DNA of 64,000 nt, taken from positions 1 through 64,000 of the forward strand of contig CACYGX010000015.1 in assembly GCA_902774055.1 (NCBI GenBank). The letters run 5' to 3'. A program made the position numbers and the translations under genes. The notes under the pieces were generated by a model that saw only the letters and a program-made list of their open reading frames with translations, ran no database searches and was not told the origin of the DNA. The stretch comes from an uncultured Bacteroidales bacterium (GTDB taxonomy: Bacteria > Bacteroidota > Bacteroidia > Bacteroidales > Muribaculaceae). Positions 4,538 to 35,290 of the stretch are shown here, piece by piece. Each line of letters starts with the position of its first letter. Position 1 is the first letter of the stretch.

Positions 4538-4724
4538 AATTAATATTGTTAGTGTTACGTATAGAATTGTTGGTTATTCCGATGGCGGCAGGGCACAACG
4601 GCCCCAAAAAAGATTAGATGTACAAAATAAGTGAATTTTACCAACATTATTACTAATCACTCACCCCTACACCCGCCAAAAAACAGCGCAAACGATTGCA
4701 CTCGACACAACTATTCACCACCTC

Positions 4725-4755
4725 TTGCAACTAAGACGCAAAAGCACTATCTTTG
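4725..4755 (+). promoter_or_regulatory. Promoter of the HAD phosphatase gene
   Basis: TTG at 4725-4727, a 20-base spacer, then TATCTTTG at 4748-4755 match the Bacteroidetes TTTG/TAnnTTTG promoter. Transcription would begin near 4761, which supports the ATG at 4779 and excludes in-frame starts upstream. Confidence 0.7.
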
Positions 4756-8670: not shown

Positions 8671-9024
8671 TTAATTAGGTAGGATTTTTTCTAGGGGTTT
8701 TCCTTTGGCAAGCTCATCGACGAGTTTGTCGAGGTAGCGTATGTCTTGCATGAGCGGCTCGTCGATTTCGGCAAGTTTTACCCCACAAATGGAGCCTTTG
8801 ATCAGGTGTCGTGACGAATTCATCTGCGGAGCCTGAAGAAAGAAGTCTCCATAAGTGATATCGCTATCGAGTGCCTTCACGATATCGGCTACAGCATAGC
8901 CTGTCAGCCATGACGTCACCGACAGCACATCCTCAAGGGTACGCCCCTTCTTCTCGGCCTTAGCGACGAGAAAAGGGTACACCTTCTTGAGTTTCATGCC
9001 ATAAACCTTATCATAATTACCCAT
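8671..9024 (-). CDS. DUF2200 family protein
   Basis: The 117-residue product matches the small DUF2200 family: KVYGMKLKKVYPFLVAKAEK near the start, SWLTGY in the middle, QAPQMN and the invariant IKGSICGVK, then a C-terminal LDKLVDELAKGKPLEKIL. The family has no established biochemical function. The ATG at 9024 gives the family's normal N-terminus; longer in-frame starts would overlap the preceding tamL gene. It lies 13 bases downstream of the tamL stop, so the two are probably co-transcribed. Confidence 0.85.
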   Translation of the reverse strand: MGNYDKVYGMKLKKVYPFLVAKAEKKGRTLEDVLSVTSWLTGYAVADIVKALDSDITYGDFFLQAPQMNSSRHLIKGSICGVKLAEIDEPLMQDIRYLDKLVDELAKGKPLEKILPN

Positions 9025-9037
9025 AACCGATAATCTA

Positions 9038-11377: not shown

Positions 11378-11416
11378 TGTCTCATCAAGACTTAAAAAGC
11401 CTAAATCTTAAAAATA

Positions 11417-13036: not shown

Positions 13037-13852
13037 TTAATGATTATCAATCTCGTTAATGGCTGCTTTGAGGCGGGACAGGCGCGTCAACAGCCCCTCA
13101 AGGCGGTCAAGCTTGAGCATGTTGGCGCCATCACTCTTGGCCTCGGCCGGATTTTGATGGGTCTCCAGGAACAAGCCATCGGCACCCGAGGCAATAGCGG
13201 CGCGTGCCATGGTCTCGATGAGTTCGGGACGGCCACCAGTCACTCCCCCACCCTGATTGGGTTGCTGCAGGGAGTGGGTCACATCGACAATCACCGGTGC
13301 AAAGGCCTGCATCACGGGAACGCCGCGGAAGTCAACCACCAGGTCCTGATAGCCGAAGGTTGTGCCACGCTCGGTGATGGCGACCTGGTCATTGCCAGCA
13401 TCACGCACCTTTTGCACAGCGAAGCGCATGGACTCTGGGGCCAGGAATTGGCCTTTCTTGATGTTCACCATGCGGCCCGTGTGGGCGGCAGCGACCAGCA
13501 ATTCCGTTTGACGGCAAAGGAATGCGGGAATCTGCAACACATCAACATATTCGGCGGCTATATCGGCCTCGACGGGCTCGTGGATGTCGGTCACCACAGG
13601 GATGCCGAAGGTCTCCCCCACCTTGCGCAGGATGCGCAGGGCTTTCTCGTCGCCGATACCCGTGAAGGAATCGATGCGAGAGCGGTTAGCCTTGCGGTAA
13701 CTCCCCTTGAAGACATAAGGAATGCCTAATGATTGGGTGATCTTTAACGCCTTCTCGGCAATATCCATAGCCATTTCCTCGCCCTCGATCACACACGGAC
13801 CGGCGAGCAGGAAAAAGTTGTGCTGTGGTGATGACAACAGTTTATTCAACAT
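13037..13852 (-). CDS. kdsA: 3-deoxy-8-phosphooctulonate synthase KdsA
   Basis: KdsA condenses arabinose 5-phosphate with phosphoenolpyruvate to give Kdo-8-phosphate for lipid A-core synthesis in the cytoplasm. The 271-residue protein shows LLAGPCVIEGEEMA, where Cys at the position occupied by Asn in E. coli KdsA indicates the metal-dependent class, then FKGSYRKANRSR, TDIHEP, QIPAFLCRQTELL and VNIKKGQFLAP. It is the first gene before the TPR protein and tamL on the minus strand. A separate KdsB-like gene at 24752 sits in the polysaccharide operon and is probably not its housekeeping partner. Confidence 0.95.
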   Translation of the reverse strand: MLNKLLSSPQHNFFLLAGPCVIEGEEMAMDIAEKALKITQSLGIPYVFKGSYRKANRSRIDSFTGIGDEKALRILRKVGETFGIPVVTDIHEPVEADIAAEYVDVLQIPAFLCRQTELLVAAAHTGRMVNIKKGQFLAPESMRFAVQKVRDAGNDQVAITERGTTFGYQDLVVDFRGVPVMQAFAPVIVDVTHSLQQPNQGGGVTGGRPELIETMARAAIASGADGLFLETHQNPAEAKSDGANMLKLDRLEGLLTRLSRLKAAINEIDNH

Positions 13853-21387: not shown

Positions 21388-22407
21388 TCAAACGCCAAAT
21401 GCTTTATGCCAAGGCAAACGCTTTACAAACTCGTTGACAGGAATCAGTACAACTAGAATAACTATCAAGGTAACGATGGCACGCTCTACATCAACCGTAA
21501 TACCTCCCGATTGGAACAATCCAAAGTGGGCATACAACATGCCACATGCAACAATGATAATGCGAGAATGCCATGAGAACAGTATCATCGTGTTGCGACC
21601 CAAGTAGGTAATAAACTTAGAGTGCACAACAGGTGACAATGACATAAACATTAAGATTCCTGCTAGGGCGGCTATCAAGGTCAATGCTTCATTACCATAC
21701 ATTCCAATAGACATGTCCAAAGAATCTCCAGAAACAATGATGCATGCTTTTGCCGCGATACCGTTAATCAAGAAGCATATTACGATTATTCCGATTCTTT
21801 TTGCCACAGGCATAGGGCCAACAAAAAAATCCCGTAAGCGAGAATTGTGCATAAAACAATAGCCAAGATGGAAGAAGAACTGGGCAATCAATGCCACATC
21901 AAGGTTCCAAGGCAGTCCATCCCACCCCATTCGATATCGAGCAAAACCCAACAGACACAATCCAAATGAAGCAGCCGTAACAGCATATTTCCATTGATGA
22001 AGACACTTGTCAATTCCGTAATAAATAATCTGTGACAGAAACAATGCGGCCAGGAACCATATCGTCCAGTAATGCTTTTGAATCAAGAACGAACGCAGCA
22101 TCTCAAGGTATGCCGATGACGGTTCGTTATAATAGGCATAGACACAACAATAGAATAACGCAATCACAGCGCCAAGTGTGAAATAAGGAATCACCAGCCC
22201 CTTGAACCGCCGCCATGTGAACTCGGTGAATGTATACTTCTCACAACCCGGATACAACAAGCCGCTGAGGAAGAAAAACAGCGGCATGTGAAAAGTATAT
22301 ACCCAAGCCGATGCAAAAGGAATGCTCAAGTGCCCAACAAACACCAACAGCAAACCCATTCCCCGCGCGGTATCCACCCAATCAATACGTCCACCTATCG
22401 CCTTCAT
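21388..22407 (-). CDS. Acyltransferase 3 family membrane protein
   Basis: The 339-residue polytopic protein belongs to the acyltransferase-3 (OafA/NodX-like) family that O-acetylates surface sugars. It begins RIDWVDTARGMGLLLVFVGH, with the conserved Arg and His of the family in helix 1, then TFHMPLFFFLSGLLYPG and about ten membrane helices. Motifs such as the WTIWFLAALFLSQIIYYG stretch fit small Bacteroides members annotated as fucose 4-O-acetylase-like. It is the last gene of the polysaccharide operon and likely decorates the finished glycan or a precursor. Acceptor and donor cannot be told from the sequence. Confidence 0.85.
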   Translation of the reverse strand: MKAIGGRIDWVDTARGMGLLLVFVGHLSIPFASAWVYTFHMPLFFFLSGLLYPGCEKYTFTEFTWRRFKGLVIPYFTLGAVIALFYCCVYAYYNEPSSAYLEMLRSFLIQKHYWTIWFLAALFLSQIIYYGIDKCLHQWKYAVTAASFGLCLLGFARYRMGWDGLPWNLDVALIAQFFFHLGYCFMHNSRLRDFFVGPMPVAKRIGIIVICFLINGIAAKACIIVSGDSLDMSIGMYGNEALTLIAALAGILMFMSLSPVVHSKFITYLGRNTMILFSWHSRIIIVACGMLYAHFGLFQSGGITVDVERAIVTLIVILVVLIPVNEFVKRLPWHKAFGV

Positions 22408-22477: not shown

Positions 22478-23173
22478 TCAATCAAGTTTCCTGCCCACAA
22501 TAAAACGGTACTTTATACCAGGCATCAGAAATTCACCCTTGTACGGTTTACCGTCAATTGAGACACTAAGCCCACGCTCTAAAGCAAGATTAATACCTGG
22601 TAATATATCCCAGGAATAAGCGCCCTTAAGATGTACAAATTTACTATATGAGCCCTTTATAACGTTGTACATGTTATACATACAACAACCCATAATCCTA
22701 TATTCATAGGTATTATCAAGTCCAATAAAGTCATCAGAAGACATATAAGAAGATAGGCCGCAGATTCGCGAATCAGACACCCCTTCAATCATATCTCCAG
22801 AGAATAGGCTCAATCCAAGTTCAGGCAACATAATCATTGATTGCTCATGAATCCCATTACAATAAATTGACACACCTATGCCCCATTCTTTAAGCCCACT
22901 CACAAAGTTTTCTGTTCCATCGATCGGATCAATTGTTATTATCCTCATAGCGGAATCCGTATGCAGATTTGTAAAGTCAGCTTCTTCTGAAATCAGGACA
23001 AAATCATCTAATGATCGATTAAGATAGCTGAAAATAATCTCCTGGCACAGGATATCACCCTTAGAAACAAAGGTGCCATCTGGCTTGAGCATCTTCGTTG
23101 ACCGTAAAGATACAATCTTGTCAAGATGTGACAACACTTCATTATAGATACCTCGGCATATGTCCATAATCAT
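22478..23173 (-). CDS. Inositol monophosphatase-family sugar phosphatase
   Basis: The 231-residue protein belongs to the FIG/IMPase superfamily of Mg2+-dependent phosphatases. It has the metal-binding motifs LISEEADF (Glu) and IDPIDGTENFVSG (Asp, Asp, with the Gly-Thr phosphate loop), plus the C-terminal GAYSWDILPGINLALERG with the final metal Asp. It starts at ATG 23173, whose A is shared with the TGA stop of the upstream aldolase gene (TGATG), a tight translational coupling. Placed between aldolase, cytidylyltransferase and acyltransferase genes, it most likely dephosphorylates a sugar-acid phosphate during glycan precursor synthesis; true inositol metabolism is less likely. Confidence 0.82.
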   Translation of the reverse strand: MIMDICRGIYNEVLSHLDKIVSLRSTKMLKPDGTFVSKGDILCQEIIFSYLNRSLDDFVLISEEADFTNLHTDSAMRIITIDPIDGTENFVSGLKEWGIGVSIYCNGIHEQSMIMLPELGLSLFSGDMIEGVSDSRICGLSSYMSSDDFIGLDNTYEYRIMGCCMYNMYNVIKGSYSKFVHLKGAYSWDILPGINLALERGLSVSIDGKPYKGEFLMPGIKYRFIVGRKLD

Positions 23174-24747
23174 CAACAATTATATAATGAAGGTGTTACA
23201 AACTCAATCGATAAAATACTAGACAATTCCCTGATTCTCTCGGTCATCGCAGCATTAAGTTCACCAACATTGTCTTGTTTAGACATATTAAGACGCTCTT
23301 GATAAAAATTACTCTCATTCTCTTTATAACCATCAAGACCAGCAAGGTAGACCTTTGATGGATTCAATTTTACCAAGAGATTCAATAGCATCATTGCTGT
23401 ATTATCCATTATTAAGTCTTTTTCGCATAATAAAGACGAATAGTTGACAACCAGCTTGCTTTCCTCTTGAATCTCAATATTTGAGGTGTGAATAAGATTC
23501 ACTTTTCTATGGTCAGGATTAAATGTGGTGTGATAACGCTTAAGATTACTTAAAAAGGTGAAATCACACTCGATAAATTGGGGAATAAAACCAACTGAAA
23601 TTGTTATACATCCACTTGACTTAACAAACTTCAATATTTCCTTCTCATATTCATTTAAAGAAGGGCCAGGAGCAAGGACCAACACAGGCTTTTGAGCTAT
23701 TTGCTCCGTTAAATAAGTCAGATTCTGTGAATCGTCTATTTCCCTCGATTGAAATTCTAGATACTTTTTTTCAGCAAGTTCTTTGTTGAACAAAGAACGC
23801 TTTTCGGGTTCAATCGAACGCAGAATTGTAGAGATATTCTTGACAGTAAGCCGCTGCTTAGAGCTTAAATATGCAGCATAGTTTGGGTGGCATCCATTAA
23901 TTGCAGCAAGATAATGAGGCACTGTATAACCCCAATTATATTGTGACTTAATCTTATTGATGTGCTCATCTATTATCTCTAGCAATGGTTCTATCTCATA
24001 TTTATGTTGAAAATGAGTATTCAAGTAATTTGCCATTAACTCCGTATTCAGGTTCCCTGCGCCGCGCCCCATACCATAGACAGAGGCATCAAGGGACATG
24101 ACACGATCACTTTCAAGTGATGTAAGTGACTGGCAATTGGAATAAGACAATTGCAAGTTGTTGTGTGAATGGAAACCCATGTGTATGGCTTTATCCAGAT
24201 TGTGATTGATCAGATAGAAAAACCTCATCACATCTTCGCGGTGCATCAAGCCCAGGGTGTCAACAAGATAGAACGAATAAGGCTTCAAGTCATTGACTAG
24301 ATGAATCAAGGACAATAATTCCTCATCACAATAGCTGGTAGTGCCAACAGGCTGAATGAACACCTTGTACCCTTTCTGCTTAATTTGATGGCAATACTCT
24401 ATCCCCTCTTCCACCTCATTAAAGTGGAAAGAGACCCTAATACCATCTATGCTGGTTCCATCATATGGTGGTAAACATTCGATTGGATACTTGCCCAAAC
24501 GGGTCATTGCGACGTAGCAAGTATTCCTGCGATCTTTTGGTAAGAACGCAGCAATCTGGTCCACGTGATTGTAAAAAGAACAATCCGGATCATAGTCACA
24601 TTCTTCCATGAATCCGCACTCAATTATGTCAACCCCTGACAAAGTGAGTTTTTGGATGATCCTTGCTATAGCATTTTTTCCAAAACGCCAATCATTCACA
24701 TAACCGCCATCACGCAACGTGCAATCCAGAATTTGGATGTCTCTCAT
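23173..24747 (-). CDS. DRE-TIM aldolase fused to a GT42/DUF115-like domain
   Basis: The 524-residue protein has two parts. Residues 1-320 are an HMGL-like (DRE-TIM metallolyase) barrel: QILDCTLRDGGYVND near the N-terminus carries the conserved Arg-Asp pair, MGFHSHNNLQLSYSN supplies the HxH metal site and YGMGRGAGNLNTELM the conserved C-terminal loop, as in 4-hydroxy-2-oxovalerate aldolase relatives found in capsule loci. Residues 345-524 begin VLVLAPGPSLNEYEKEI and contain KVYLAGLDGY, a Rossmann-like domain resembling DUF115/GT42 sialyltransferases. The gene is coupled to the IMPase downstream and starts 4 bases after the KdsB-like gene. A pyruvate-dependent carbon-carbon bond formation giving a ulosonic acid is inferred, not shown. 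Confidence 0.75.
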   Translation of the reverse strand: MRDIQILDCTLRDGGYVNDWRFGKNAIARIIQKLTLSGVDIIECGFMEECDYDPDCSFYNHVDQIAAFLPKDRRNTCYVAMTRLGKYPIECLPPYDGTSIDGIRVSFHFNEVEEGIEYCHQIKQKGYKVFIQPVGTTSYCDEELLSLIHLVNDLKPYSFYLVDTLGLMHREDVMRFFYLINHNLDKAIHMGFHSHNNLQLSYSNCQSLTSLESDRVMSLDASVYGMGRGAGNLNTELMANYLNTHFQHKYEIEPLLEIIDEHINKIKSQYNWGYTVPHYLAAINGCHPNYAAYLSSKQRLTVKNISTILRSIEPEKRSLFNKELAEKKYLEFQSREIDDSQNLTYLTEQIAQKPVLVLAPGPSLNEYEKEILKFVKSSGCITISVGFIPQFIECDFTFLSNLKRYHTTFNPDHRKVNLIHTSNIEIQEESKLVVNYSSLLCEKDLIMDNTAMMLLNLLVKLNPSKVYLAGLDGYKENESNFYQERLNMSKQDNVGELNAAMTERIRELSSILSIEFVTPSLYNC

Positions 24748-24751
24748 TTAT

Positions 24752-25504
24752 CTACAGTTTTATAAGCCCATCACTAATGCGACGTTGTATTACTCTCGTA
24801 ACTACAGTTAGGTCTGCTCTCGTATCAACAGTAAGTGTTTCTGCCGGAATCTCTATAAATTTAATTTTCTTACCATTTTCAAGAAAACGGTATTCATCAA
24901 TATCCTCTATCGACTCGAGTTTTCCTCTAGGCGTTTCTCCACAAAACAATAAAGCCTTTCGGGTAAAGCACTGGATTCCAACAAATTTCATGTAATCAAA
25001 GTCTGAGCTAGCTTTGGGATAAGGAATAGGCACCCTTGCAAGATATAACCCGTACCCCTGATTATCTGTTGCAATCTTTATTCGTGACACATCATTAACC
25101 TCAACAGGCTTTTTGATTTTTGTCATTGCATTAGCAAAGTAGAAGCCGTTAGGGTCTATTTCAGGCCCAGGAAGCAATTTCTCAACATACTCTGGCATCA
25201 TTAAGGGTTCATCCCCATTAATGTTTATATAAAAATCTGCCTCTAATTTCTGCGCCACTTCGGCTAGCCGATCAAGATGAGTAGGATGCTTATCTGATGT
25301 CATGATATATTTAATATCATATTTCTCGCAAACATCAGATATTATTGTATTATCAGTTGCAACGTAAATCTCAGAAATTCCTTTTGCAAGCTTCAACTGC
25401 CTGTGCACCCACCATATCATAGGTTTTCCACATATATCAACAATAGGTTTCCCTGGGAATCGAGTACTTTGATACCTTGCTGGTATTATTGCTACAATCT
25501 TCAT
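24752..25504 (-). CDS. KdsB-like CMP-sugar-acid cytidylyltransferase
   Basis: The 250-residue protein is close to 3-deoxy-manno-octulosonate cytidylyltransferase, which joins CMP from CTP to Kdo. It has IPARYQSTRFPGKPI at the N-terminus, KPMIWWVHRQL, YVATDN, the DKHPTHLDRLAEV region (family: T..C/S..GT.R), and FYININGDEPLMMPE. The TSDKHPTHLDR sequence replaces the usual SGTDR at the substrate side, suggesting another sugar acid. Its position between the aldolase fusion and a DUF115 protein, and the separate location of kdsA at 13037, argue that it is a pathway-specific paralogue. ATG 25504 is used; the TTG two codons upstream is less likely. Confidence 0.82.
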   Translation of the reverse strand: MKIVAIIPARYQSTRFPGKPIVDICGKPMIWWVHRQLKLAKGISEIYVATDNTIISDVCEKYDIKYIMTSDKHPTHLDRLAEVAQKLEADFYININGDEPLMMPEYVEKLLPGPEIDPNGFYFANAMTKIKKPVEVNDVSRIKIATDNQGYGLYLARVPIPYPKASSDFDYMKFVGIQCFTRKALLFCGETPRGKLESIEDIDEYRFLENGKKIKFIEIPAETLTVDTRADLTVVTRVIQRRISDGLIKL

Positions 25505-25516
25505 GATCAATATCTA

Positions 25517-26314
25517 TTATAAAAGTTCATCTAAATTAACACGTTCGAAACTCTCTAGTTTACCACCTCTTGTTGCATTAAAGATCCTGAAGCCCATTTT
25601 TCTTGATACCTTCTCAGCTGTATCATAGGCAATGGTCGTCTCTACCACTCGAGGCAAGTTCCCTTTATTAATAAAATCCTGCATGCCTTTAGGATAATTA
25701 CTATCTGTTTCATTCTTGATGATATTCCCTTCGGCATCTCGAATAATGCTATAGTTATGGTCCACTCCAATCAAGTATATCTCCTTAAAGCCCATATATA
25801 CTGCAATCTGGATAGCACCATAAGTCACAGTAAAGCCTTGAGAAAGATATTTAGAGACATTCCTGCTGAACGGAGCCATTTTGGGATAAAACTCTTTGTG
25901 TTTGAGCACAAAATAATTAATTCTTGTATCATCCTCGTCAAATAGGCTCTTAAAATCAACAGGCAAGAACAAATACTTTGATGGGACTGCTGCAATTCTA
26001 TCTCTGAACTTCTTGATTAATTCACTGTCCTGATTCACATAAAAAGTGGGTCTCCAATCAGTCTGATCAAATAACTCATAGATTCGATTCGTCCCAAACG
26101 TGTATTCGTTCCGCAACCTTTCCAAGTCACTGATTGTCAAACTCGGACCTGTTCCAATAACAAAACATCTTTTGCCTTCAAAAGCACCTTTAAGCGAACG
26201 GATTTTCTTGAATGCCTCTTTATTCTTCCAGTATTGCCGCTTTGCAATACATGCATATAAAAAATTATATACAAGCCTTGAGACCTGTTTATTTTTTATG
26301 ACCTTTTCTATCAT
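25517..26314 (-). CDS. DUF115 / GT42-like putative sugar-acid transferase
   Basis: The 265-residue protein has the Rossmann-like DUF115 domain: RCFVIGTGPSLTISDLERL (GTGPSL loop), TFGTNRIYELF, FYVNQDSELI, then VTYGAIQIAVYMGFKEIYLIG followed by DHNY. The GxGPSL loop and the GxxxIQIAxYMGFxxIYLxGxD block are shared with GT42 sialyltransferases and Maf flagellin glycosyltransferases, which use CMP-nonulosonates. It overlaps the flippase gene by ATGA and precedes the KdsB-like gene. It may transfer the CMP-activated product made by its neighbours; other annotations of this family (MptE-like pyrophosphokinase) seem unlikely here. Confidence 0.75.
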   Translation of the reverse strand: MIEKVIKNKQVSRLVYNFLYACIAKRQYWKNKEAFKKIRSLKGAFEGKRCFVIGTGPSLTISDLERLRNEYTFGTNRIYELFDQTDWRPTFYVNQDSELIKKFRDRIAAVPSKYLFLPVDFKSLFDEDDTRINYFVLKHKEFYPKMAPFSRNVSKYLSQGFTVTYGAIQIAVYMGFKEIYLIGVDHNYSIIRDAEGNIIKNETDSNYPKGMQDFINKGNLPRVVETTIAYDTAEKVSRKMGFRIFNATRGGKLESFERVNLDELL

Positions 26315-27831
26315 CTGAAGGTACTTTTTATTCTGTTAAACAACCAAACCCGTTGCGAATACGAAAGAAGAAAATGGGCAATTATCAAAGAAGAGAGCAA
26401 AGTAGATCCCCCTCCAATGAAAACTAACTTCACCCATGTGTTTAAATTTACGAAATGATTGATTAGCAACCCAAATATGCAACAAAATGCCAAACAAGCA
26501 TAAGATACTAATAAGTCTGGCCACAATGCTGTCAACTTCTGCTTCGCACAATAGGCACCTAGAGGAGCATTAAAAAAGAAGTTTCTTATAAATCCTATAA
26601 TAGCACTCACCATAACTATCGCATATACACCCAAGTTTGTTGTCTTTAAAATGACATACACAATTACAACATTCAAAACTCCAGTAACCAACAAAGCAAT
26701 GGCTTGCCATCTCACCTTATCGGCAACGGTATATAAATAATTCGTCGAACTAATTGCGCCACCTGAGAATAATGGGAGCGCAACAATAAGCGAAAGATTA
26801 TAAACGGTTTTAACATCTGTATCCGGTGTCCATAATTGATAAAACGGACAACCAAAAGCAACCAGGAAACTAATGGGCAGACATGTAATTACAGTCAAGA
26901 ACTTAATACTATTACGCAAATCATGAAACATTTCTGTATACTTCTCCAATGAATATAATTCAAGGAAGCGGGGAGTGAAAACGTTTGCTAAAGTAAAGAT
27001 GCAGGTGCCAATCACGCCAGGAATTAAGTTTGCAACTGATAATAGCCCCATTGCTGTCGCACTTACTAAAACATTCGCAATCAAAAGGTCAAGACCATGT
27101 AAAAGAACAACGCTTAACTGATTAAGCGAGTTCCATACACCAGAAGACACTATTGTCTTAACTGATTTTAAAGAAGAGTAACTATATCTAAGTCTTAACT
27201 CGGGTGTTATTCGTTTAGTAAAAATAACACTACAGACTGCGATAAAAATACTTGCACACAGTGTAGCGGTTCCAAGATATACAATCGATGGTTTAAATTT
27301 CCAGTATAACACCACTAGTATCGATGCCTTCATTACACTGGAAATAATATTTAATGTCGATGATATATCAAGCCTGTTTTTTATAACAAACGCACATCCA
27401 AAAACCGCAAAAATGACATTGCAACACATATTAGCAAAAACAATGTAAAACAATGTCTTTACATCTAAAAGGATATCTGCAGGAACAGTAATCAACTTGT
27501 CTATGTAAAAAATCGCAAAGCAACTAGGCAAAAGTATGATCAATGCAAATAATAAATCAGCGACAAAAACTGATGAGAAATATCCACATGCATGTCGCAT
27601 ATTGCCTCTATGATAGTCGATGCCAATATAGCGAGCAGCCATTGAATTAAGGGCTGTCGTGATAATAAGTGCATAATTCACGAAAGAATTGGCTAATCCC
27701 CAGAACCCAAAAGCAGTTGAACCCACTGTCCTAACAAGATAGGATGTAAGGAAAAAATTAATACCGAATTGAATCACAAGATTCAATGCAGTAGCAATGG
27801 TATTTACAGCAAACTGACGGTTATTCCCCAT
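26311..27831 (-). CDS. Wzx-type oligosaccharide flippase
   Basis: The 506-residue integral membrane protein has 12-14 predicted helices and the polysaccharide-transporter (MVF/MATE-like) pattern: NTIATALNLVIQFGINFFLTSYLVR at the start, FGFWGLANSFVNY, MAARYIGIDYHRGN and the long hydrophobic C-terminus. It should move lipid-linked oligosaccharide across the inner membrane. It lies mid-operon and overlaps the DUF115 gene by 4 bases. No Wzy polymerase or initiating phosphoglycosyltransferase is recognisable in this window, so either these lie elsewhere or a single repeat unit is exported. Low GC is marked. Confidence 0.88.
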   Translation of the reverse strand: MGNNRQFAVNTIATALNLVIQFGINFFLTSYLVRTVGSTAFGFWGLANSFVNYALIITTALNSMAARYIGIDYHRGNMRHACGYFSSVFVADLLFALIILLPSCFAIFYIDKLITVPADILLDVKTLFYIVFANMCCNVIFAVFGCAFVIKNRLDISSTLNIISSVMKASILVVLYWKFKPSIVYLGTATLCASIFIAVCSVIFTKRITPELRLRYSYSSLKSVKTIVSSGVWNSLNQLSVVLLHGLDLLIANVLVSATAMGLLSVANLIPGVIGTCIFTLANVFTPRFLELYSLEKYTEMFHDLRNSIKFLTVITCLPISFLVAFGCPFYQLWTPDTDVKTVYNLSLIVALPLFSGGAISSTNYLYTVADKVRWQAIALLVTGVLNVVIVYVILKTTNLGVYAIVMVSAIIGFIRNFFFNAPLGAYCAKQKLTALWPDLLVSYACLAFCCIFGLLINHFVNLNTWVKLVFIGGGSTLLSSLIIAHFLLSYSQRVWLFNRIKSTFR

Positions 27832-27897: not shown

Positions 27898-28800
27898 TTA
27901 TAACGTTAACACAATTTCTTGTATTTTGCGAATTGGTTTTGTCAACACAACCCGGTGTTCGAGGACGTCAATCACCTCATAATGAAGACTGCGATTGAAG
28001 GTATGGAGCCGCTCAAAACTGTATTTCTTATCAAATAAGACGTCAGTACACGTTAATTCGAAAATCGGTTGTTCTTGAGCGAGTCCTGCATCAATCTTAT
28101 TAATATCATCAAGTCTGGAAAACAGTATTTTCTCACCATACATTCGAGAACAATCCTGTAAAACTCTTATAGATTTACCATTCAACGATAGACAATTGCC
28201 GCCACATCGCTCTTGATTCAATTTAGAATTGCTTTCACACGGTCTAATCTCCATCGAAGATACATCGAACTTATACACCAACAGTTCTTTTGTCTCAAAA
28301 TCTTGGGAAAAAAGATAGTTAGGCGCCCCTTCATCATCAAACAAAATCGATGAATCCACAAATCGACGTCCACTTGCAAGAACGTGGTCGAGTTCCCAGT
28401 CATAAGGGAATTGTTTTGCGCGATAAAGGCGAATCTGATTAGCCTTCTCTGACTCTGGAATCATGTAAATTGTCCCATTTACCATGAACACATTGGGATA
28501 CGATAAATGGAATGGCTCTGCCAGAACTTCATTGAACCCTACGACGATTCCGTTTTTATCCAATTCAAAACACGCTATTGACCCTAGACCTCTAAACCTC
28601 TTATACAGTTCGACAAATATAAAGAACCGGTCATTGTGCTCGAAGGGGAAAGGGTCAGCCCACCACTGCGTTTGTCCACTTCGTATCAAGTTATAGCAGG
28701 GTTGCGCTCCACACACTGGAAGTGGAGATTCATAATCCACCTTCCGCCAACCGACGGCATAACTCTCCTCGAGAAACAGTTTCTTCAGTAAGCCAAGCAT
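27898..28800 (-). CDS. GINT1 N-terminal-like beta-propeller protein of the polysaccharide locus
   Basis: The 300-residue protein resembles the N-terminal domain of plant glucosamine inositolphosphorylceramide transferase (a five-bladed GH43-like propeller) seen in bacterial polysaccharide loci. Signatures are QTQWWADPFPFEHNDRFFIF, EPFHLSYPNVFMVNGTIYMI, PESEKANQIRLYRA and RFVDSSILFDDEGAPNYLF. No signal peptide is evident. The free-standing domain has no proven activity; a glycan-processing or formyl/acyl-related role is possible. It sits between the LicD and flippase genes in the operon. Confidence 0.65.
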   Translation of the reverse strand: MLGLLKKLFLEESYAVGWRKVDYESPLPVCGAQPCYNLIRSGQTQWWADPFPFEHNDRFFIFVELYKRFRGLGSIACFELDKNGIVVGFNEVLAEPFHLSYPNVFMVNGTIYMIPESEKANQIRLYRAKQFPYDWELDHVLASGRRFVDSSILFDDEGAPNYLFSQDFETKELLVYKFDVSSMEIRPCESNSKLNQERCGGNCLSLNGKSIRVLQDCSRMYGEKILFSRLDDINKIDAGLAQEQPIFELTCTDVLFDKKYSFERLHTFNRSLHYEVIDVLEHRVVLTKPIRKIQEIVLTL

Positions 28801-28860
28801 TGGAGTCTTTACATCCTATTTAGATTCCTTATGATTGAGATTGGGTTTACAACATTATTA

Positions 28861-29706
28861 TCAACTGATCTCTAGGACAGTCTCAAATCTATCTAGATTA
28901 CATCGTTTATCCTCAGGAGGCGGTGTCATATAGTCGCCATAAGCTCTTGTCAAAATCTCATCATAATTGGAAGGAATGAGGACCTTGAGACCATCAAAAT
29001 CAACTTTCTTAAGAGAAAAATGTGAACTGAAATATATCGGTTGACGTACACCCATAAGCACGCCCATGTATTCACTACTCTTGGTAGTATCAACAGCCAA
29101 GTTATAAATCATATGCTCAATACCTTTCTCCGTAAATAACAACCGAAAAACATGCATTCCATACAATGCAATTATCCGCAAGTACTTAAATCGACTCGTT
29201 CCTTGTTTAAAAGCTCTCATCATAAAACGCTTCTCATTCCAGTTCAATTTCGCAATTGACAAAATCAATCTAAGAATATTCTTGCGCTTGATATCTTTGA
29301 CATAACTTGGTTTAAGGTAATCGACACAATAAATGTCAACTGTAATTTGACTATTAATATTGAGATCCTCACCAATCTTAGGGCAATACTTTGTGCCTCG
29401 CCTTCCTACTTTAACTTCTGAGACATAGTCTGCTGAACCTGAACCATTTATTTTTATATCATTTAGATGAAGGATTTCCTTCCCATCAGCTTTAACACAA
29501 TCGATAAAACGGTAATAATTGTCTCTAGTCATTGCAATATCGATATCATCATCCCAGGGTATCACTCCACCATGTCTAACTGCTCCTAAGAGCGAACCAT
29601 GTATCATGAAATAATCAATATCATGTTTCTCACAAAAGACAATTATCTCCTTAAGAATATCTCGACAAATATTTTGGACAGTCTGTCTCTGTTCTGTTGT
29701 ATTCAT
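28861..29706 (-). CDS. LicD family phosphotransferase
   Basis: The 281-residue protein has the LicD nucleotidyltransferase-fold motif: YFMIHGSLLGAVRHGGVIPW followed by DDDIDIAM, with the paired acidic residues that bind metal. LicD enzymes move phosphocholine or other polyol phosphates from a CDP carrier onto a sugar of a surface glycan. The C-terminal region (VLIPSNYDEILTRAYGDYMTPP) is also typical. It lies between a GT2 gene and the GINT1-like gene. No choline kinase or licC is seen nearby, so the transferred group is unknown. Confidence 0.87.
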   Translation of the reverse strand: MNTTEQRQTVQNICRDILKEIIVFCEKHDIDYFMIHGSLLGAVRHGGVIPWDDDIDIAMTRDNYYRFIDCVKADGKEILHLNDIKINGSGSADYVSEVKVGRRGTKYCPKIGEDLNINSQITVDIYCVDYLKPSYVKDIKRKNILRLILSIAKLNWNEKRFMMRAFKQGTSRFKYLRIIALYGMHVFRLLFTEKGIEHMIYNLAVDTTKSSEYMGVLMGVRQPIYFSSHFSLKKVDFDGLKVLIPSNYDEILTRAYGDYMTPPPEDKRCNLDRFETVLEIS

Positions 29707-29728
29707 ATATTATAATTTTTTTGTAATA

Positions 29729-30748
29729 TTAATTCTTCATCCTTAACGAAACCCTTATCATCTTAAATAGTAGATGATAGTGATGGCGCTTCATGCAGTA
29801 GGCAAATACATTCATCTTATTTCCGAGATTGGATGAATGATTACTGCATATTTCATCAATTTTGTCCTGGTCGACAACAGAAATGAACTGCCTAACAGTT
29901 TCGCTGACTGTATCTGGACTTGACTTCACAGTCCATAGTACCAAACCATAAAGGTACTCCAGCATTGTGTTACCAATAGCTATATCGACAGATGGATAAG
30001 ACCTTCTCTTGCGTTCTTCAAAGAGCAGCTTTACACGGTTCCACTCGTCCTGGATGCTGAATTGAGATAGCATCTTCTGAGTGATTGACGTTGGGTTATT
30101 GATATAATTATATATAACCCCATCACTAACCATTACACTCTGACAAGCATTGACAAAATCTATATTAAATATCTCATCTTCATAGGGCTGAAGCTCTTTT
30201 ATAAAAGAAAACTTGTTACTCTTAATAATCGAATGTTTATAAATCTGCTTCCATACAAATCCTTTTAGCTGAGGACGTCCAGGAAGAAAACCATAAACCT
30301 GAGTCTTAATAACATCCAACTTGTCACCACGATAAAGGCCTGTTTCAAAAGGCGGGCATTTTATCACATTCCTACCATCTTCTCTACAATCCTTATAAGC
30401 GGCAATAAACAAGTCACAATCCGTTTCTCTAAGCTTCGCAATGGCTTCATCATACCCTCCAGGTTCGAGTATATCATCACTGTCACAGAAGCCGATATAA
30501 TCAGCCTCTACTTCCGTTATCCCCAAGTTTCTTGCACCAATATATCCGATATTGTCCTTGATGGTCCGAACTACAAATCGAGGGTCCTTTTTGGCATATT
30601 CGGCACATATTTCGCCGCAACGGTCGGGTGATCCATTATCGATGAGAAAGAACTCCAGTTCTGGGCTTTTCAAGGCCATCATGGAGTCCAATAGACGAGG
30701 CAAGTCCTTCTCAGCCTTATAAATCGTTGTGATGATGCTTACTTTCAT
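29729..30748 (-). CDS. Glycosyltransferase family 2
   Basis: The 339-residue cytoplasmic enzyme has a GT-A fold: MKVSIITTIYKAEKDLPRLL at the N-terminus, FFLIDNGSPDRCGEICAEYA, a nucleotide-sugar site GARNLGITEVEADYIGFCDS with the DSDD metal motif near residue 94, and FVWKQIYKHSIIKSNKF. It transfers one sugar residue during assembly of the lipid-linked repeat unit. Its ATG directly abuts the stop of the cupin epimerase gene (TGAATG). Donor and acceptor are unknown. Confidence 0.87.
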   Translation of the reverse strand: MKVSIITTIYKAEKDLPRLLDSMMALKSPELEFFLIDNGSPDRCGEICAEYAKKDPRFVVRTIKDNIGYIGARNLGITEVEADYIGFCDSDDILEPGGYDEAIAKLRETDCDLFIAAYKDCREDGRNVIKCPPFETGLYRGDKLDVIKTQVYGFLPGRPQLKGFVWKQIYKHSIIKSNKFSFIKELQPYEDEIFNIDFVNACQSVMVSDGVIYNYINNPTSITQKMLSQFSIQDEWNRVKLLFEERKRRSYPSVDIAIGNTMLEYLYGLVLWTVKSSPDTVSETVRQFISVVDQDKIDEICSNHSSNLGNKMNVFAYCMKRHHYHLLFKMIRVSLRMKN

Positions 30749-31321
30749 TCAACGTGATTCCAGTTGTGAGTATTCTTTAAAGCTCATCAGGTTGAGGTCT
30801 TTTTCACTGATGATTAGGTTCTGTTCTCCTCCGATTTCTTCAAATGGCCACTCTATTGCCAAATCGGGGTCATTGTACATGATGCCAGAATCACCGTCAC
30901 CGTAGAACACCTCTCCACACTTGTAGCTGACAATCGAGTCCTCAATCACAAGATAGCCGTGGCCAAAGTACTGAGGGACAAGCAAAGACAAGGTGTTTTC
31001 TCCTGTGAGATGAAAACCGCGCCATTGGCCATAAGTTGGCGAATCTGGACGCAAATCGGCTATCACGTCATAAACATGTCCGCTGACACACCGCACTAAT
31101 TTGGCCTGTTGCTTTAGCAATTGAAAATGCATGGCACGGATAACACCCCTTTTAGAGATGGTATAAAAAACTTCTTTCAAGTCGTGGTCGATGCCATTGG
31201 CCTTGAAAGTGTCAATGTTATAATCTTTAATAAAGCCACCGCGGTTATCTGTGGCATGGAAACTCTTGATTAGATAGGCCCCTTTTAGGTCCAGCTCTTG
31301 AAACTCAAACTTTTGAATCAT
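30749..31321 (-). CDS. Cupin sugar-nucleotide epimerase, RmlC-like
   Basis: The 190-residue protein is related to dTDP-4-dehydrorhamnose 3,5-epimerase: DLKGAYLIKSFHATDNRGGFIKDY, VIRAMHFQLLKQQAKLVRCV, GHVYDVIADLRPDSPTYGQW and FGHGYLVIEDSIVSYKCGE. His in RAMHFQ and the Asp of DLRPDS fit the catalytic pair. Because it lies directly behind CDP-glucose 4,6-dehydratase and a reductase and no rml genes are present, it probably epimerises CDP-4-keto-6-deoxyglucose at C3, or C3 and C5, rather than the dTDP form. Confidence 0.82.
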   Translation of the reverse strand: MIQKFEFQELDLKGAYLIKSFHATDNRGGFIKDYNIDTFKANGIDHDLKEVFYTISKRGVIRAMHFQLLKQQAKLVRCVSGHVYDVIADLRPDSPTYGQWRGFHLTGENTLSLLVPQYFGHGYLVIEDSIVSYKCGEVFYGDGDSGIMYNDPDLAIEWPFEEIGGEQNLIISEKDLNLMSFKEYSQLESR

Positions 31322-31344
31322 GTTAATTGAGTTTTTCTATTTAT

Positions 31345-32256
31345 TTAGATGGTTTTGAGCCACTCCATGGTCATACGAGTCCCCTCGGCAAATCCAACTT
31401 TGGGCTTGAAGCCACAGTCTTGTTCTATATCTGTTGTATCAAAAGCAGACAGCGGCAGATTTGTTCCAGTAAATGGTACGTCACCGAATTGTGGAGTCTG
31501 ATCGGGTGCCAACTCTTGCTGCATTTCAATGATAAATTCTTTGAGTGGACGGGCATTACCGCTGCCAATGATGTATTCCTTGAAAGGCACACCTTTTTCT
31601 GCGACATCAAAGAAAGCCTGAGCTACGTCAGTCACATAGACAAAATCGTAATTTTGGGTTCCTGCCGTGAATTGCAAGGGTTCGTGGTTGATAATCTTTC
31701 GCAACGTAGTATTAACAAATCGGGGAGACAATTCCCCTACACCATAAGCATTGGTAATCATTGGCCACAATAGGTCTAAGCCGATATTTGCGGCAACCGA
31801 TTTACACAAACAATGAGCAATGTGCTTTCCCATCCCATAGATATACCCCATTCCGGGACGACTGCCCTGAGTGTGCACGGCTGCTTCCACCTCGCGCTCC
31901 ATGATGCTGCCTGCACAAACAAACCTTAAGCACCCCATGTCCCGAGCTGTTTTTAAGCACTCTACAGTACTCAAGGCATTCTGCATCTGCAAGTTATAAT
32001 CGGTCCTGAGAGGACCTGCCGAACCTGCCCATGCAAAATGAACAAATGTATCAAACTCACCAATTGGGATTGCTTTTAAAAGTTGTTCCTTGTCAGTGAT
32101 GTCAACACACTTATAAGACAAACCTGTTTGTGGAGTTAGACGCCTTGGCTTATCAACTATATCCAATGCCAACACCTCAATGCCATGGTCAAGAAAGCAT
32201 TGAGCCGTATTGCTGCCCACAAAGCCATCGGCTCCTGTGATAACCACTTTATTCAT
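31345..32256 (-). CDS. NAD(P)-dependent sugar-nucleotide epimerase/reductase
   Basis: The 303-residue short-chain dehydrogenase has the extended-SDR features VVITGADGFVGSNTAQCFL (GxxGxxG cofactor loop), TFVHFAWAGS, the catalytic YGMGK (Tyr and Lys) and WPMITNAYGVGELSPRFVN. In the operon it follows rfbG, so reduction of a CDP-4-keto-6-deoxyhexose at C4 is the likely role, as with CDP-abequose/paratose-type reductases. No RfbH (C3 dehydrase) is encoded, so a 6-deoxy rather than a 3,6-dideoxy sugar is expected. Confidence 0.82.
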   Translation of the reverse strand: MNKVVITGADGFVGSNTAQCFLDHGIEVLALDIVDKPRRLTPQTGLSYKCVDITDKEQLLKAIPIGEFDTFVHFAWAGSAGPLRTDYNLQMQNALSTVECLKTARDMGCLRFVCAGSIMEREVEAAVHTQGSRPGMGYIYGMGKHIAHCLCKSVAANIGLDLLWPMITNAYGVGELSPRFVNTTLRKIINHEPLQFTAGTQNYDFVYVTDVAQAFFDVAEKGVPFKEYIIGSGNARPLKEFIIEMQQELAPDQTPQFGDVPFTGTNLPLSAFDTTDIEQDCGFKPKVGFAEGTRMTMEWLKTI

Positions 32257-32272
32257 GATATGATGAAAACAA

Positions 32273-33328
32273 TTAATTTAAGAAATCTGTGATTTGTTTT
32301 TCCATGCAGGCATTCAGATTGCCATTTCCTTGCCAGCATTTGCTCCACTCAACGACTTTTTCAACACCAGTGTCGAGATTCCAACGCGGCGACCAGCCGA
32401 AAACAGACTTAATCTTTGAACAGTCCAATTTCAAGAAGTTGGCCTCGTGAGGGCCTTCTACATTTGATGGCGTACTCCAAGAGAGGCCTTCGCCCCAATG
32501 CTTGACAAATAAATCCACAAGGGCTCCTGTCTTAAAACAATCCTGCTCATCAGGTCCAACGTTATACCAACCTGAGTATGCATTGTCCTCGTACTGCTTT
32601 GCACATATCATCAGATATGCAAACAACGGCTCAAGCACATGCTGGTAAGGCCGAGTAGAGTGAGGATTTCGGACAATAATCTCCTCATGCCTTACTGCTG
32701 CTCTAACACAATCAGGGATAATGCGGTCATTTGCAAAATCGCCACCTCCAATCACGTTTCCAGCTCGCGCTGTAGAAATGGCAACACTACCGTCAACAAA
32801 AAAACTATTTTTGTAGCTATGAGTAACAAGTTCAGAACAAGATTTGGAATTGGAATAGGGATCAAATCCGTCAAGCATCTCGTCTTCACGATAGCCCCAC
32901 ACCCACTCTCGATTCAAGTAAACCTTGTCTGTGGTCACATTAAGAAATGAACGAACCGAAGAGGTCCGCCTTAAGCATTCCATAACGTTGACAGTACCCA
33001 TCACGTTTGTTTCATAAGTATAACGTGGTTCCTTATAACTATCACGTACAATAGGTTGGGCCGCCAGGTGAAGAACGATTTCTGGATTTGCTTCGTCAAA
33101 TACCCTCATTAAGTGAGACACGTCTCTGATGTCACCAATGACGGAATGGCAAATATCCTCTCCCCTAATAAGAGCAAAAAGAGAAGGTTGCGTATTAGGT
33201 TCTAACGAGTAACCTGTAACATCGGCACCCAACAAGGAAAGCAGTTTGCACAACCAAGATCCTTTGAATCCTGTGTGTCCGGTTACAAGTACGCGTTTTC
33301 CTTTATAAAAATTCAAATCAAATTCCAT
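32273..33328 (-). CDS. rfbG: CDP-glucose 4,6-dehydratase RfbG
   Basis: This enzyme converts CDP-D-glucose to CDP-4-keto-6-deoxy-D-glucose with bound NAD+. The 351-residue protein has KRVLVTGHTGFKGSWLCKLL, the typical start of CDP-glucose dehydratases, LHLAAQPIVRDSY, the TTDKVYLNREW segment, and NSKSCSELVTHSYKNSFF. ARAGNVIGGGDFANDRIIPD and RPYQHVLEPLFAYL complete the family pattern. It is adjacent to rfbF and the reductase; together they form the CDP-6-deoxyhexose branch of the operon. Confidence 0.94.
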   Translation of the reverse strand: MEFDLNFYKGKRVLVTGHTGFKGSWLCKLLSLLGADVTGYSLEPNTQPSLFALIRGEDICHSVIGDIRDVSHLMRVFDEANPEIVLHLAAQPIVRDSYKEPRYTYETNVMGTVNVMECLRRTSSVRSFLNVTTDKVYLNREWVWGYREDEMLDGFDPYSNSKSCSELVTHSYKNSFFVDGSVAISTARAGNVIGGGDFANDRIIPDCVRAAVRHEEIIVRNPHSTRPYQHVLEPLFAYLMICAKQYEDNAYSGWYNVGPDEQDCFKTGALVDLFVKHWGEGLSWSTPSNVEGPHEANFLKLDCSKIKSVFGWSPRWNLDTGVEKVVEWSKCWQGNGNLNACMEKQITDFLN

Positions 33329-33372
33329 GAAAACGATCCTCCAGCAATGGTGTCTATTGATAAATGAGAAAT

Positions 33373-34152
33373 CTATTTATCCCATAATTTCCATGGGGCT
33401 TCGCCTGTTTCCCATAAACGCTCAAGTTTTTCCTTCTCTCTCAATGTATCCATACATTGCCAAAAACCCTTGTGTACATATCCCATCAGTTGGTGATCAC
33501 GTACCAGTCCATTCATCGGTTCTTTTTCAAATATGATATCATCACCTGAGATGTAATCAAACAGTTCTGGTTCAAACACCATAAAACCGATATTAATCAT
33601 GTCATCGTCCTGGTCACTCTTCTCTCGGAAGGCTTCCACATCTCCACTACCAGACAGTTCCAAAACCCCTTTATTTTGGCTAAAGTTGTAAACCGAAACT
33701 GTACCTATCTTCTTGTGAGCCTTATGGTAATCCAACAATTCTTTCACGTTGATATCACCCACAGCATCCCCATAAGTCAACATAAAAGTCTCATTACCCA
33801 CATAGTCCTTAATTCGCTTCACTCGCCCTCCGGTCTGAGTGTTTAGTCCCGTGTCAATAATAGTTACTTTCCAAGGTTCGACATGTTTGCGATGGACAAT
33901 AATCTCATTTCCTTTAGTGAAATCAAATGTCACATCGGATGTGTGCAAGAAATAATCAGCGAACCACTCCTTGATGACGTGTTGGCGATAACCTGCACAA
34001 ATGATGAAATCATTAAAACCATAGTGAGAATAAACCTTCATGATGTGCCACAAAATGGGCATGCCACCTATCTCAACCATGGGTTTAGGACGGAATTGGG
34101 ATTCTTCAGAAATGCGGGTTCCAAAACCTCCCGCTAATATCACGACTTTCAT
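33373..34152 (-). CDS. rfbF: Glucose-1-phosphate cytidylyltransferase RfbF
   Basis: RfbF joins CTP and glucose 1-phosphate to give CDP-glucose. The 259-residue protein shows VVILAGGFGTRISEESQFRP with the nucleotide loop and Lys in KPMVEIGGMPILWHIMK, FIICAGYRQHVIKEWFADYF, MLTYGDAVGDINVKELLDYH and NGLVRDHQLMGYVHKGFWQC (ends with MDTLREKEKLERLW). It is the second gene of the operon and supplies the substrate of the adjacent RfbG. Identification is secure. Confidence 0.95.
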   Translation of the reverse strand: MKVVILAGGFGTRISEESQFRPKPMVEIGGMPILWHIMKVYSHYGFNDFIICAGYRQHVIKEWFADYFLHTSDVTFDFTKGNEIIVHRKHVEPWKVTIIDTGLNTQTGGRVKRIKDYVGNETFMLTYGDAVGDINVKELLDYHKAHKKIGTVSVYNFSQNKGVLELSGSGDVEAFREKSDQDDDMINIGFMVFEPELFDYISGDDIIFEKEPMNGLVRDHQLMGYVHKGFWQCMDTLREKEKLERLWETGEAPWKLWDK

Positions 34153-34168
34153 GAAACTTTATGATATG

Positions 34169-35290
34169 TCAGAGTGAATCAAAAAACTTTTCATACTCAT
34201 CAACCAAGCTCTGAGTTGTCATGCGTGGAGCCTCGCTGATCGCTTGTGCATATTGTTTGATTTTCTCATGATGAGTAAGTAAATCCTTCAAACCCTCATA
34301 TATCGACTCATCATCATTGGGCACAATCATACCATACTTGCCACCTTCAAGGATTTCGTCCATACCAGAGCAATCTGTCGTAAAAACAGGAACTCCAAGA
34401 GCCACAGACTCAGTTACTGCAGTACTATATCCCTCATGATATGAAGTACACACAAAAAGATCCATTTTTGACAAATAACGATATGGGTTCGGGTCAAAGC
34501 CCAGCAGTTTGATGTTATCACTCAAACCAGCCTGTTCAATTGAACGCTTCAAAGAATAATGTTCATTTCCTTTACCTAATATGTAAATTTTAACATTATC
34601 CATCAATTTGTCTTGTTTTAATTTAGCACAAGCATCAACCAGTCGATGGAAACCTTTAATCTTATGCAATTTATTAACTGCACACAAATTCAGTTTTCCT
34701 TCAGACAACTCCAAAGGCATAGGCTCTTTAGCTAGTTCATAGATCCTTTCATAATCATTCACATTATGAAGAACCCTCATCGGTATTTTTATCTCAGGAT
34801 ACAATTTTCTAAACGAAGATCTAGCACGGTGGGCAACAAACACCAACTCATCAAGACGATTATAGGCATCTATCATCTCATCTTCATCATGGAATCCTCT
34901 AAAGGGCCTTGTTCTATTCTTCACCTCAGTATGAATCCATCCAATTTTTTTTGTTTTATCATTTGGACAAGCAGCTACGATTCTTGTCGGAGATGTTTCC
35001 AAATAGCCAATTTCGATGTCATAATCATCTTTGACAAAAAGCCTATGCCAGAATTTAGCTGGAAACAACTTCATTATCTTGTTGAAACCACGAAACTCAT
35101 ACCTAAAGAAATAACTGAACTTTATTCCTTTTGGAACATTCTTTACATGAGGACCGGCGCCAAATATGGTCTTTAATGTCACATCATATTTATTGAGGTC
35201 AAGGTGCTTCAAGAGGTTAATCAGTACCCTTTCAGCACCTCCTCCCTTCAAATCGAAATGAAAGAACAGTATTTTCTTTTTGTCAGCCAT
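34169..35290 (-). CDS. Glycosyltransferase family 4
   Basis: The 373-residue GT-B enzyme begins ILFFHFDLKGGGAERVLINL and has LCAVNKLHKIKGFHRLVDAC, YILGKGNEHYSLKRSIEQAG, LLGFDPNPYRYLSKMDLFVC and the donor-binding SYHEGYSTAVTESVALGVPV (E...E pattern of retaining GT4 enzymes). It is the first gene of the polysaccharide operon, 257 bases from the predicted promoter. The sugar it transfers is unknown. Confidence 0.9.
   Translation of the reverse strand: MADKKKILFFHFDLKGGGAERVLINLLKHLDLNKYDVTLKTIFGAGPHVKNVPKGIKFSYFFRYEFRGFNKIMKLFPAKFWHRLFVKDDYDIEIGYLETSPTRIVAACPNDKTKKIGWIHTEVKNRTRPFRGFHDEDEMIDAYNRLDELVFVAHRARSSFRKLYPEIKIPMRVLHNVNDYERIYELAKEPMPLELSEGKLNLCAVNKLHKIKGFHRLVDACAKLKQDKLMDNVKIYILGKGNEHYSLKRSIEQAGLSDNIKLLGFDPNPYRYLSKMDLFVCTSYHEGYSTAVTESVALGVPVFTTDCSGMDEILEGGKYGMIVPNDDESIYEGLKDLLTHHEKIKQYAQAISEAPRMTTQSLVDEYEKFFDSL

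Follow-up and report, generated by a model that had tools for sequence, protein, structure and literature searches.

The described routes to ulosonic acids activated with cytidine monophosphate (CMP) use, to our knowledge, synthases that depend on phosphoenolpyruvate (PEP): KdsA in the pathway to 3-deoxy-D-manno-octulosonic acid (Kdo), which comprises KdsD, KdsA, KdsC and KdsB, and NeuB in the pathways to sialic, legionaminic and pseudaminic acids. The locus considered here is a cassette of four genes at positions 22478-26314 (minus strand) of a stretch of 64,000 nucleotides, referred to below as the window, from an uncultured Bacteroidales bacterium (contig CACYGX010000015.1). We consider it probable that these genes act as a CMP-ulosonate cassette, with a metal-dependent pyruvate aldolase forming the carbon-carbon bond. 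The cassette resembles the Kdo pathway in its activation by a KdsB-family enzyme, its predicted phosphatase step and the DUF115 protein close to KdsB. It differs in having an HMGL/DRE-TIM pyruvate aldolase in place of KdsA, KdsD and KdsC, in a KdsB that is altered outside its core, and in occurring in genomes that have no KdsA over cut-off. With the NeuB-type pathways it appears to share the logic of a 2-keto-3-deoxy acid, CMP activation and a transferase of the DUF115/Maf type.

The comparison with Kdo is closest in Gram-positive gene order. In the passages of PMC8470653 that describe the exopolysaccharide cluster of the Bacillus cereus group, PF01973 (MAF_flag10), KdsB and KdsA are genes 3504, 3502 and 3501, arabinose-5-phosphate isomerase (KdsD) is 3500 and Kdo-8-phosphate phosphatase (KdsC) is 3499; gene 3503 does not appear in them. 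Three Gottfriedia loci (L072, L075 and L121) have the order DUF115, KdsB-like enzyme, aldolase, HAD; set against the cluster as those passages give it, the aldolase seems to replace KdsA and KdsD, and the HAD phosphatase KdsC.

In the window, all four open reading frames (ORFs) lie within a minus-strand glycan operon that spans 35290 down to 21388. The first encodes a free-standing DUF115/MptE-like protein of 265 residues with a GTGPSL loop (25517-26314), the second a KdsB-like CMP-sugar synthetase (24752-25504), the third the aldolase (23173-24747) and the fourth a phosphatase of the inositol monophosphatase (IMPase) type with 231 residues (22478-23173). The starts of the IMPase and KdsB genes are likely to be the ATGs at 23173 and 25504 rather than the TTG codons listed. 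A Wzx-like flippase (26311-27831, Polysacc_synt, 35.2 bits) overlaps the DUF115 gene by ATGA, a gap of 4 bases separates the KdsB-like and aldolase genes, and the aldolase and IMPase genes overlap by TGATG. An initial annotation of this DNA had described four genes coupled by exactly these junctions in an operon devoid of NeuB, KdsA and KdsC, and our analysis bears it out: no PEP-dependent synthase (KdsA or NeuB) was found among the 14 operon proteins scanned, the four-gene module has no KdsA, KdsD or KdsC, and NeuB was not found in the genome, an assembly of 54 contigs (of which the window's is C15) with an estimated completeness of 94%. A true KdsA (Kdo-8-phosphate synthase) does occur in the window, at 13037-13852 on the minus strand (381.6 bits against a cut-off of 314), in a housekeeping stretch outside the glycan operon.

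The aldolase is a fusion. Its N-terminal part (about residues 1-320) belongs to the DRE-TIM/HOA-like enzymes (Pfam HMGL-like, E 2.7e-17, 63.5 bits), and in a profile search of the PDB this half finds the uncharacterised 3dxi, a 'putative aldolase', as its best match (E 2.7e-45), with solved 4-hydroxy-2-oxovalerate aldolases at E ~1e-21 at best. With these enzymes, among them DmpG (1nvm), it shares the TIM-barrel family by sequence and R12, D13, H193 and H195, which are invariant across 53 sequences and align with the solved aldolases; we take D13, H193 and H195 to be the metal ligands of the family. It differs from the 4-hydroxy-2-oxovalerate aldolases in the tyrosine that occupies what we presume to be the position of the catalytic histidine, in the extra fused domain and in its glycan setting. 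A score of 69.2 bits, far under the cut-off of 286 for the 4-hydroxy-2-oxovalerate aldolase equivalog TIGR03217, makes it a relative of that group and not a member.

The C-terminal half (about residues 335-524) carries an APGPSL/APGKS loop and an AGxDG motif. It scores 15.4 bits against Pfam MptE-like (PF01973), below the cut-off of 34.6; 4 of 53 members match MptE-like in Pfam at E <=0.01, and hhalign against the free-standing DUF115 family returns a probability of 61.7% (E 7.7e-5). The initial annotation had an aldolase fused to a GT42/DUF115-like domain. The fusion is real; the DUF115 likeness is marginal. We regard the domain as DUF115/GT42-like at the edge of detection, and as a glycosyltransferase it is weakly labelled.

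The module also occurs well beyond the window. A scan with five aligned aldolases as query, covering a single genome for each species, returned at least 587 stretches, among them at least 572 aldolase relatives with a tblastn E of 1e-3 or lower, some of which may lack the fusion. The locus counts that follow rest on the best 80 of these at least 572 relatives, chosen on aldolase similarity only and with matches that reach both halves of the protein; a map of neighbouring gene clusters covers 77 loci. By their titles, 66 of the 80 are from Bacillota, seven from Bacteroidota and one each from Elusimicrobiota, Thermoplasmatota, Pseudomonadota and Thermodesulfobacteriota, with three of unassigned phylum; many are metagenome-assembled genomes (MAGs). 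A cytidylyltransferase lies within 6 kb in 75 of the 80 loci and directly upstream (<=120 nt) in 71, and a phosphatase lies within 6 kb in 47 (44 HAD, three IMPase) and within 120 nt in 40. Where at least 6 kb is available on both sides (n=55), the figures are 53 for the cytidylyltransferase and 32 for the phosphatase. A free-standing DUF115 gene is present in 15 of the 80. Around stand-alone aldolases of about 316 residues, which served as control, no cytidylyltransferase was found in any of 15 loci (three of the 15 having a short flank on one side). The association of aldolase and cytidylyltransferase is far above chance. The cassette thus recurs across phyla, mostly in Bacillota, in the search for co-occurrence that the initial annotation had suggested. 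Within the window's own order the full-length fusion is matched in only three of 295 genomes, its own and those we call G003 and G186, a patchiness that is as expected for exchanged glycan genes. The triad is also found on a Leisingera plasmid, where genes recorded as 'aldolase catalytic domain-containing protein', '3-deoxy-manno-octulosonate cytidylyltransferase' and 'HAD family hydrolase' are adjacent; this aldolase is 25% identical, the order there is aldolase, KdsB, HAD, and the record names no pathway. A contig labelled as a Thermoplasmata archaeon MAG (L114) carries aldolase, HAD and KdsB-like genes.

The synthases of the known routes are almost entirely missing from these loci. KdsA was found in none of the 80 whole loci, including in a second search with the true KdsA of the window's genome, and KdsD in none within 6 kb. 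NeuB was found in one, the Phocaeicola locus that had supplied the NeuB query, so that the cassette differs from NeuB-type pathways in 79 of the 80. A likeness to those pathways appears in the cytidylyltransferase: the nearest one belongs to the KdsB type in 43 loci, and in 32 of the 75 to the other, PseF-like type; three PseF-like enzymes tested had PseF as their best match, under its cut-off.

We also checked 16 named genomes that contain the cassette, most of them draft assemblies, for KdsA, NeuB and KdsB. Only that of Phocaeicola vulgatus has a KdsA over cut-off. In the other 15 the main matches of the KdsA search score about 100-130 bits in frames of 314-400 residues (one genome gave none) and look like 3-deoxy-D-arabino-heptulosonate 7-phosphate (DAHP) synthases. 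A true NeuB (>=288 bits) is present in six of the 16; the remaining NeuB matches reach at most about 40 bits and fall at the positions of the DAHP synthases, with one genome again giving none. Both a KdsA over cut-off and a true NeuB are missing from ten of the 16, every one of them a Firmicutes genome. In eight of these a single KdsB-type gene is present, and its coordinates are those of the aldolase-linked copy; the other two have no KdsB-type gene and a PseF-like cytidylyltransferase beside the aldolase. In these ten organisms the neighbouring aldolase is the sole candidate that we see for making the sugar acid.

The occurrence of the pair in such genomes bears on one alternative in particular, namely that the KdsB-like enzyme makes ordinary CMP-Kdo from housekeeping Kdo and that the aldolase and IMPase are unrelated to it, for example supplying a substituent. 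We suggest that this is unlikely, and the KdsB-like enzyme itself gives evidence in both directions. It belongs to CTP_transf_3 (Pfam, E 1.6e-40, 139.7 bits), it passes the NCBIfam KdsB subfamily NF003952 (223 against 193 bits), and its closest solved structures are CMP-Kdo synthetases, all of which would suit Kdo. It fails the four other KdsB cut-offs listed in NCBIfam: the equivalog TIGR00466 (134.4 against 155.2), NF003948 (128 against 281), NF003950 (182.2 against 234) and NF009905 (238.5 against 255). It is moreover a second paralogue and not the only KdsB of its genome, a possibility that the initial annotation had recognised as damaging, since a canonical kdsB (310 bits) is found on a separate contig (C12:37036).

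A quick tree of 76 cytidylyltransferases places the 24 canonical Bacteroidales KdsBs that it includes in one clade (support of 98 in the Shimodaira-Hasegawa-like approximate likelihood-ratio test, SH-aLRT), and the window enzyme apart from them, with aldolase-linked enzymes of P. vulgatus, Bacillus, Gottfriedia and the Thermoplasmata MAG. Forty of the 46 aldolase-linked KdsB-type enzymes in the tree form this main clade. Ten positions, R12, S15, R17, K21, R81, D100, K145, R159, D229 and D233, are identical in the 24 canonical and all 40 main-clade enzymes; we take them to be largely the residues that bind CTP and magnesium. All 40 differ from the canonical enzymes at five further positions, each invariant in the latter (Q to N, Y to Q, L or E, E to D or N, Q to E or H, and W to F), and 26 of the 40 also at a sixth, a histidine; the window enzyme differs at all six. 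We read a conserved core with changes elsewhere as unchanged chemistry acting on another sugar, and we suggest that the changed positions may lie on the sugar side.

The two remaining members of the cassette fit a CMP-ulosonate route. The free-standing DUF115 protein matches Pfam MptE-like (PF01973) at E 2.2e-15 (57.3 bits, cut-off 34.6). Under the NCBIfam cut-offs its family matches PseD in 7 of 13 members and WaaZ in 4 of 13, and its PDB profile matches are 5mu5 (E 4e-4), which we take to be a Maf, a CMP-N-acetylneuraminic acid (CMP-Neu5Ac) sialyltransferase (E 0.015) and the pyrophosphokinase MptE (E 0.12). PseD, WaaZ, Maf and the CMP-Neu5Ac sialyltransferase all use CMP-ulosonates. The family thus leans, under cut-offs, toward transferases of CMP-pseudaminic acid and Kdo, and the window protein is a probable CMP-ulosonate transferase. 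In the neighbourhood of the cassette in Paenibacillus and Clostridia there are also proteins like alpha-2,8-polysialyltransferase (PF07388; two representatives scanned, L069 6510-8228 and L090 5353-6501), and 15 of the 77 mapped loci have related proteins of about 690 residues (for example L064 4562-6646), two representatives of which had no Pfam match over cut-off.

The IMPase matches Pfam Inositol_P (E 9.4e-15, 55.2 bits, cut-off 27), and its translation retains DPIDGTENF and WDILPG, whose DPIDGT and WD motifs we take to be catalytic in this family. P. vulgatus has a 60% identical IMPase gene in the same slot. An IMPase occupies the slot in the window, in P. vulgatus and in two Paenibacillus loci, and a Gph-like HAD in most relatives that have a phosphatase; the sharing of this slot by two unrelated phosphatases suggests that the route includes a dephosphorylation step.

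The chemistry, the order of steps, the substrate and the product we infer as follows. The N-terminal half of the aldolase would take a phosphorylated aldehyde from central metabolism and add pyruvate to it, and the resulting 2-keto-3-deoxy sugar acid phosphate would be dephosphorylated by the IMPase, or by the HAD where that is the phosphatase. The KdsB-like enzyme would then join the free acid with CMP for transfer into a surface glycan by the DUF115 protein, possibly assisted by the fused DUF115-like domain; the adjacent flippase would export this glycan. The annotated neighbour clusters, many clusters being without annotation, showed no sugar-phosphate isomerase, which would be in keeping with an acceptor drawn from common metabolites, for example triose or erythrose phosphate; an epimerase/dehydratase-type cluster is present in 10 of the 77 mapped loci. 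The initial annotation had outlined the same sequence of aldolase, phosphatase, CMP activation and DUF115 transfer. The recurrence of the cassette, the lack of KdsA in all 80 loci and the ten of 16 genomes with neither synthase strengthen that outline; the proposed aldehyde and product, and the way in which the aldol reaction is proposed to run, are part of our reading.

The aldolase could instead be degradative, splitting a 2-keto-3-deoxy acid into pyruvate and an aldehyde, with the cassette salvaging or recycling a sugar acid. The nearest characterised relatives, the 4-hydroxy-2-oxovalerate aldolases, are catabolic enzymes. In addition, a PfkB kinase adjoins the aldolase, in the slot of the phosphatase, in three of the best 80 loci (L076 10616-11638, L112 and L128). 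These three form with L135, which has no PfkB gene, one aldolase subclade (SH-aLRT 90), and in a more distant clade (L053 and L055) a PfkB kinase directly follows the cytidylyltransferase. The L076 kinase, the single one tested, is a full-length match to a solved 2-keto-3-deoxygluconate kinase (2afb, E 1.6e-109). The setting is one of glycan synthesis, with a flippase, glycosyltransferases and a cytidylyltransferase, and a separate source of ulosonate is not seen in nearly all of the 80 loci; we therefore judge breakdown very unlikely. For biosynthesis, a homologue of 2-keto-3-deoxygluconate kinase in the phosphatase slot hints that the product may be a short 2-keto-3-deoxy sugar acid.

A number of our observations weigh against an aldolase-based CMP-ulosonate route and have to be set beside the evidence above. 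With a true KdsA and a canonical kdsB, Kdo is available in the window's own genome. In the tree, six of the 46 aldolase-linked KdsB-type enzymes sit on the side of the canonical ones; five of these outliers keep the first canonical glutamine, and all six the glutamate. A near relative of the cassette, in G003, is the closest by its KdsB-like enzyme (82% identical; aldolase 61%). There (L034 11630-17098), the KdsB-like, aldolase and HAD genes are immediately preceded by KdsA-like and KdsD-like genes and an extra cytidylyltransferase, the KdsA-like gene being 50% identical to KdsA of the window's genome, so a Kdo-type synthase is at hand and the clean split between the two gene sets is broken. 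The cluster may make both Kdo and an aldolase product, each activated by its own cytidylyltransferase, or its sugar may be Kdo after all; the further cytidylyltransferase, and a canonical kdsB elsewhere in the same genome, could serve Kdo. In G186 (L035) an ORF resembling NeuB (32%, 3880-4728) and a cytidylyltransferase-like ORF lie at least 2.7 kb upstream. Both loci are outside the best 80. The G186 locus also has, at 9008-11631, an HpcH/HpaI aldolase and an LdpA-like Fe-S protein between the fused aldolase and the HAD and KdsB genes. Further points of the same kind are the 33 of the 80 loci (10 of the 33 incomplete) with no phosphatase within 6 kb, and Y16 of the aldolase, at least 90% Tyr in the 53 sequences, which aligns with the position after LRDG where the 4-hydroxy-2-oxovalerate aldolases have their catalytic base histidine.

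The last of these adverse observations concern loci that have no cytidylyltransferase. There are five among the 80: L074 is ended by its contig, and in the other four a thiamine diphosphate (ThDP) enzyme similar to acetolactate synthase adjoins the aldolase or lies one gene away (L098 4486-6300, L122 6356-8209, L136 232-2043 and L138 3-1619; the L098 protein was scanned and the others are 54-76% identical to it). These loci indicate that the aldolase family has at least one other use, perhaps in branched-chain sugars. Since their aldolases retain the fused C-terminal domain where there is no cytidylyltransferase, a plain role for that domain as a CMP-sugar transferase is less likely. They also raise the alternative that the aldolase of the cassette acts in making or altering a small 2-keto acid or a nucleotide sugar with a branched chain, and that the link to the cytidylyltransferase concerns another step. 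L098 carries RfbF, RfbG and RfbH as well, which together with the ThDP enzyme suggests a branched-chain sugar; a Desulfobaculum plasmid has a short aldolase beside rfbH and a split transketolase; L071 has a ThDP homologue farther upstream (1521-3365) alongside a cytidylyltransferase; the short aldolases of L036 and L037 are adjacent to a cytidylyltransferase, L036 also having a split ThDP enzyme; and the window operon itself has the CDP-glucose genes RfbF and RfbG. However, the ThDP-linked fused aldolases and the Desulfobaculum enzyme form a separate set (SH-aLRT 89), a cytidylyltransferase accompanies the great majority of relatives, and neither a ThDP enzyme nor RfbH was found among the 14 operon proteins scanned in the window. 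We consider a branched-chain product improbable for this cassette. A phosphonate pathway was considered for L036 and dropped, as no PEP mutase was found among six neighbours scanned.

Around the four genes, the window operon continues upstream of the flippase (27898-35290, minus strand) with GINT1_N-like, LicD, GT2, RmlC-like epimerase, short-chain dehydrogenase/reductase (SDR), CDP-glucose 4,6-dehydratase, glucose-1-phosphate cytidylyltransferase and GT4 proteins, and it ends with an acyltransferase 3 family protein 70 bases downstream of the IMPase gene (21388-22407, minus strand; Acyl_transf_3, 77.7 bits). The glucose-1-phosphate cytidylyltransferase, CDP-glucose 4,6-dehydratase and SDR genes occupy 31345-34152, also on the minus strand, with the RmlC-like epimerase at 30749-31321, and we read these CDP-sugar genes as belonging to a second, CDP-linked 6-deoxy sugar of the same glycan. 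RfbF and RfbG were rejected as general partners of the cassette, their matches being scattered in the 77-locus map.

No description of a route of this kind was found in the open-access literature that we searched, subscription papers lying mostly outside the search. The Klebsiella K38 capsule, which is reported to contain a 3-deoxy-pentulosonic acid, was considered as a lead, and literature searches gave no link. In PMC4616057, the main text has no aldolase, cytidylyltransferase or HMGL, and the passages on K38 concern Wzy.

The four-gene cassette described by the initial annotation is thus confirmed, and it is far more general than the window. The interpretation, that it is one for CMP-ulosonate biosynthesis with a different class of enzyme for the key bond, is partly supported by these data. 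Going further, we tentatively propose, as something possible rather than probable, a widespread class of CMP-ulosonates made with no PEP-dependent synthase, in which a metal-dependent pyruvate aldolase would form the carbon-carbon bond from central metabolites. The product would be a short 3-deoxy-2-ulosonic acid, with six carbons if the acceptor is triose phosphate and seven if it is erythrose 4-phosphate. Bacillota, Bacteroidota and other organisms would carry it in their surface glycans, and some of these organisms seemingly make neither Kdo nor sialic acids.

The cassette is found across many unrelated bacteria of gut and soil. If our interpretation is correct, the pyruvate-aldolase route would be a second chemical solution to ulosonate synthesis and would explain why some Gram-positive genomes carry KdsB-like genes but lack KdsA. 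It would also predict an acidic sugar, undescribed in the literature that we searched, on the surface of gut bacteria such as P. vulgatus.

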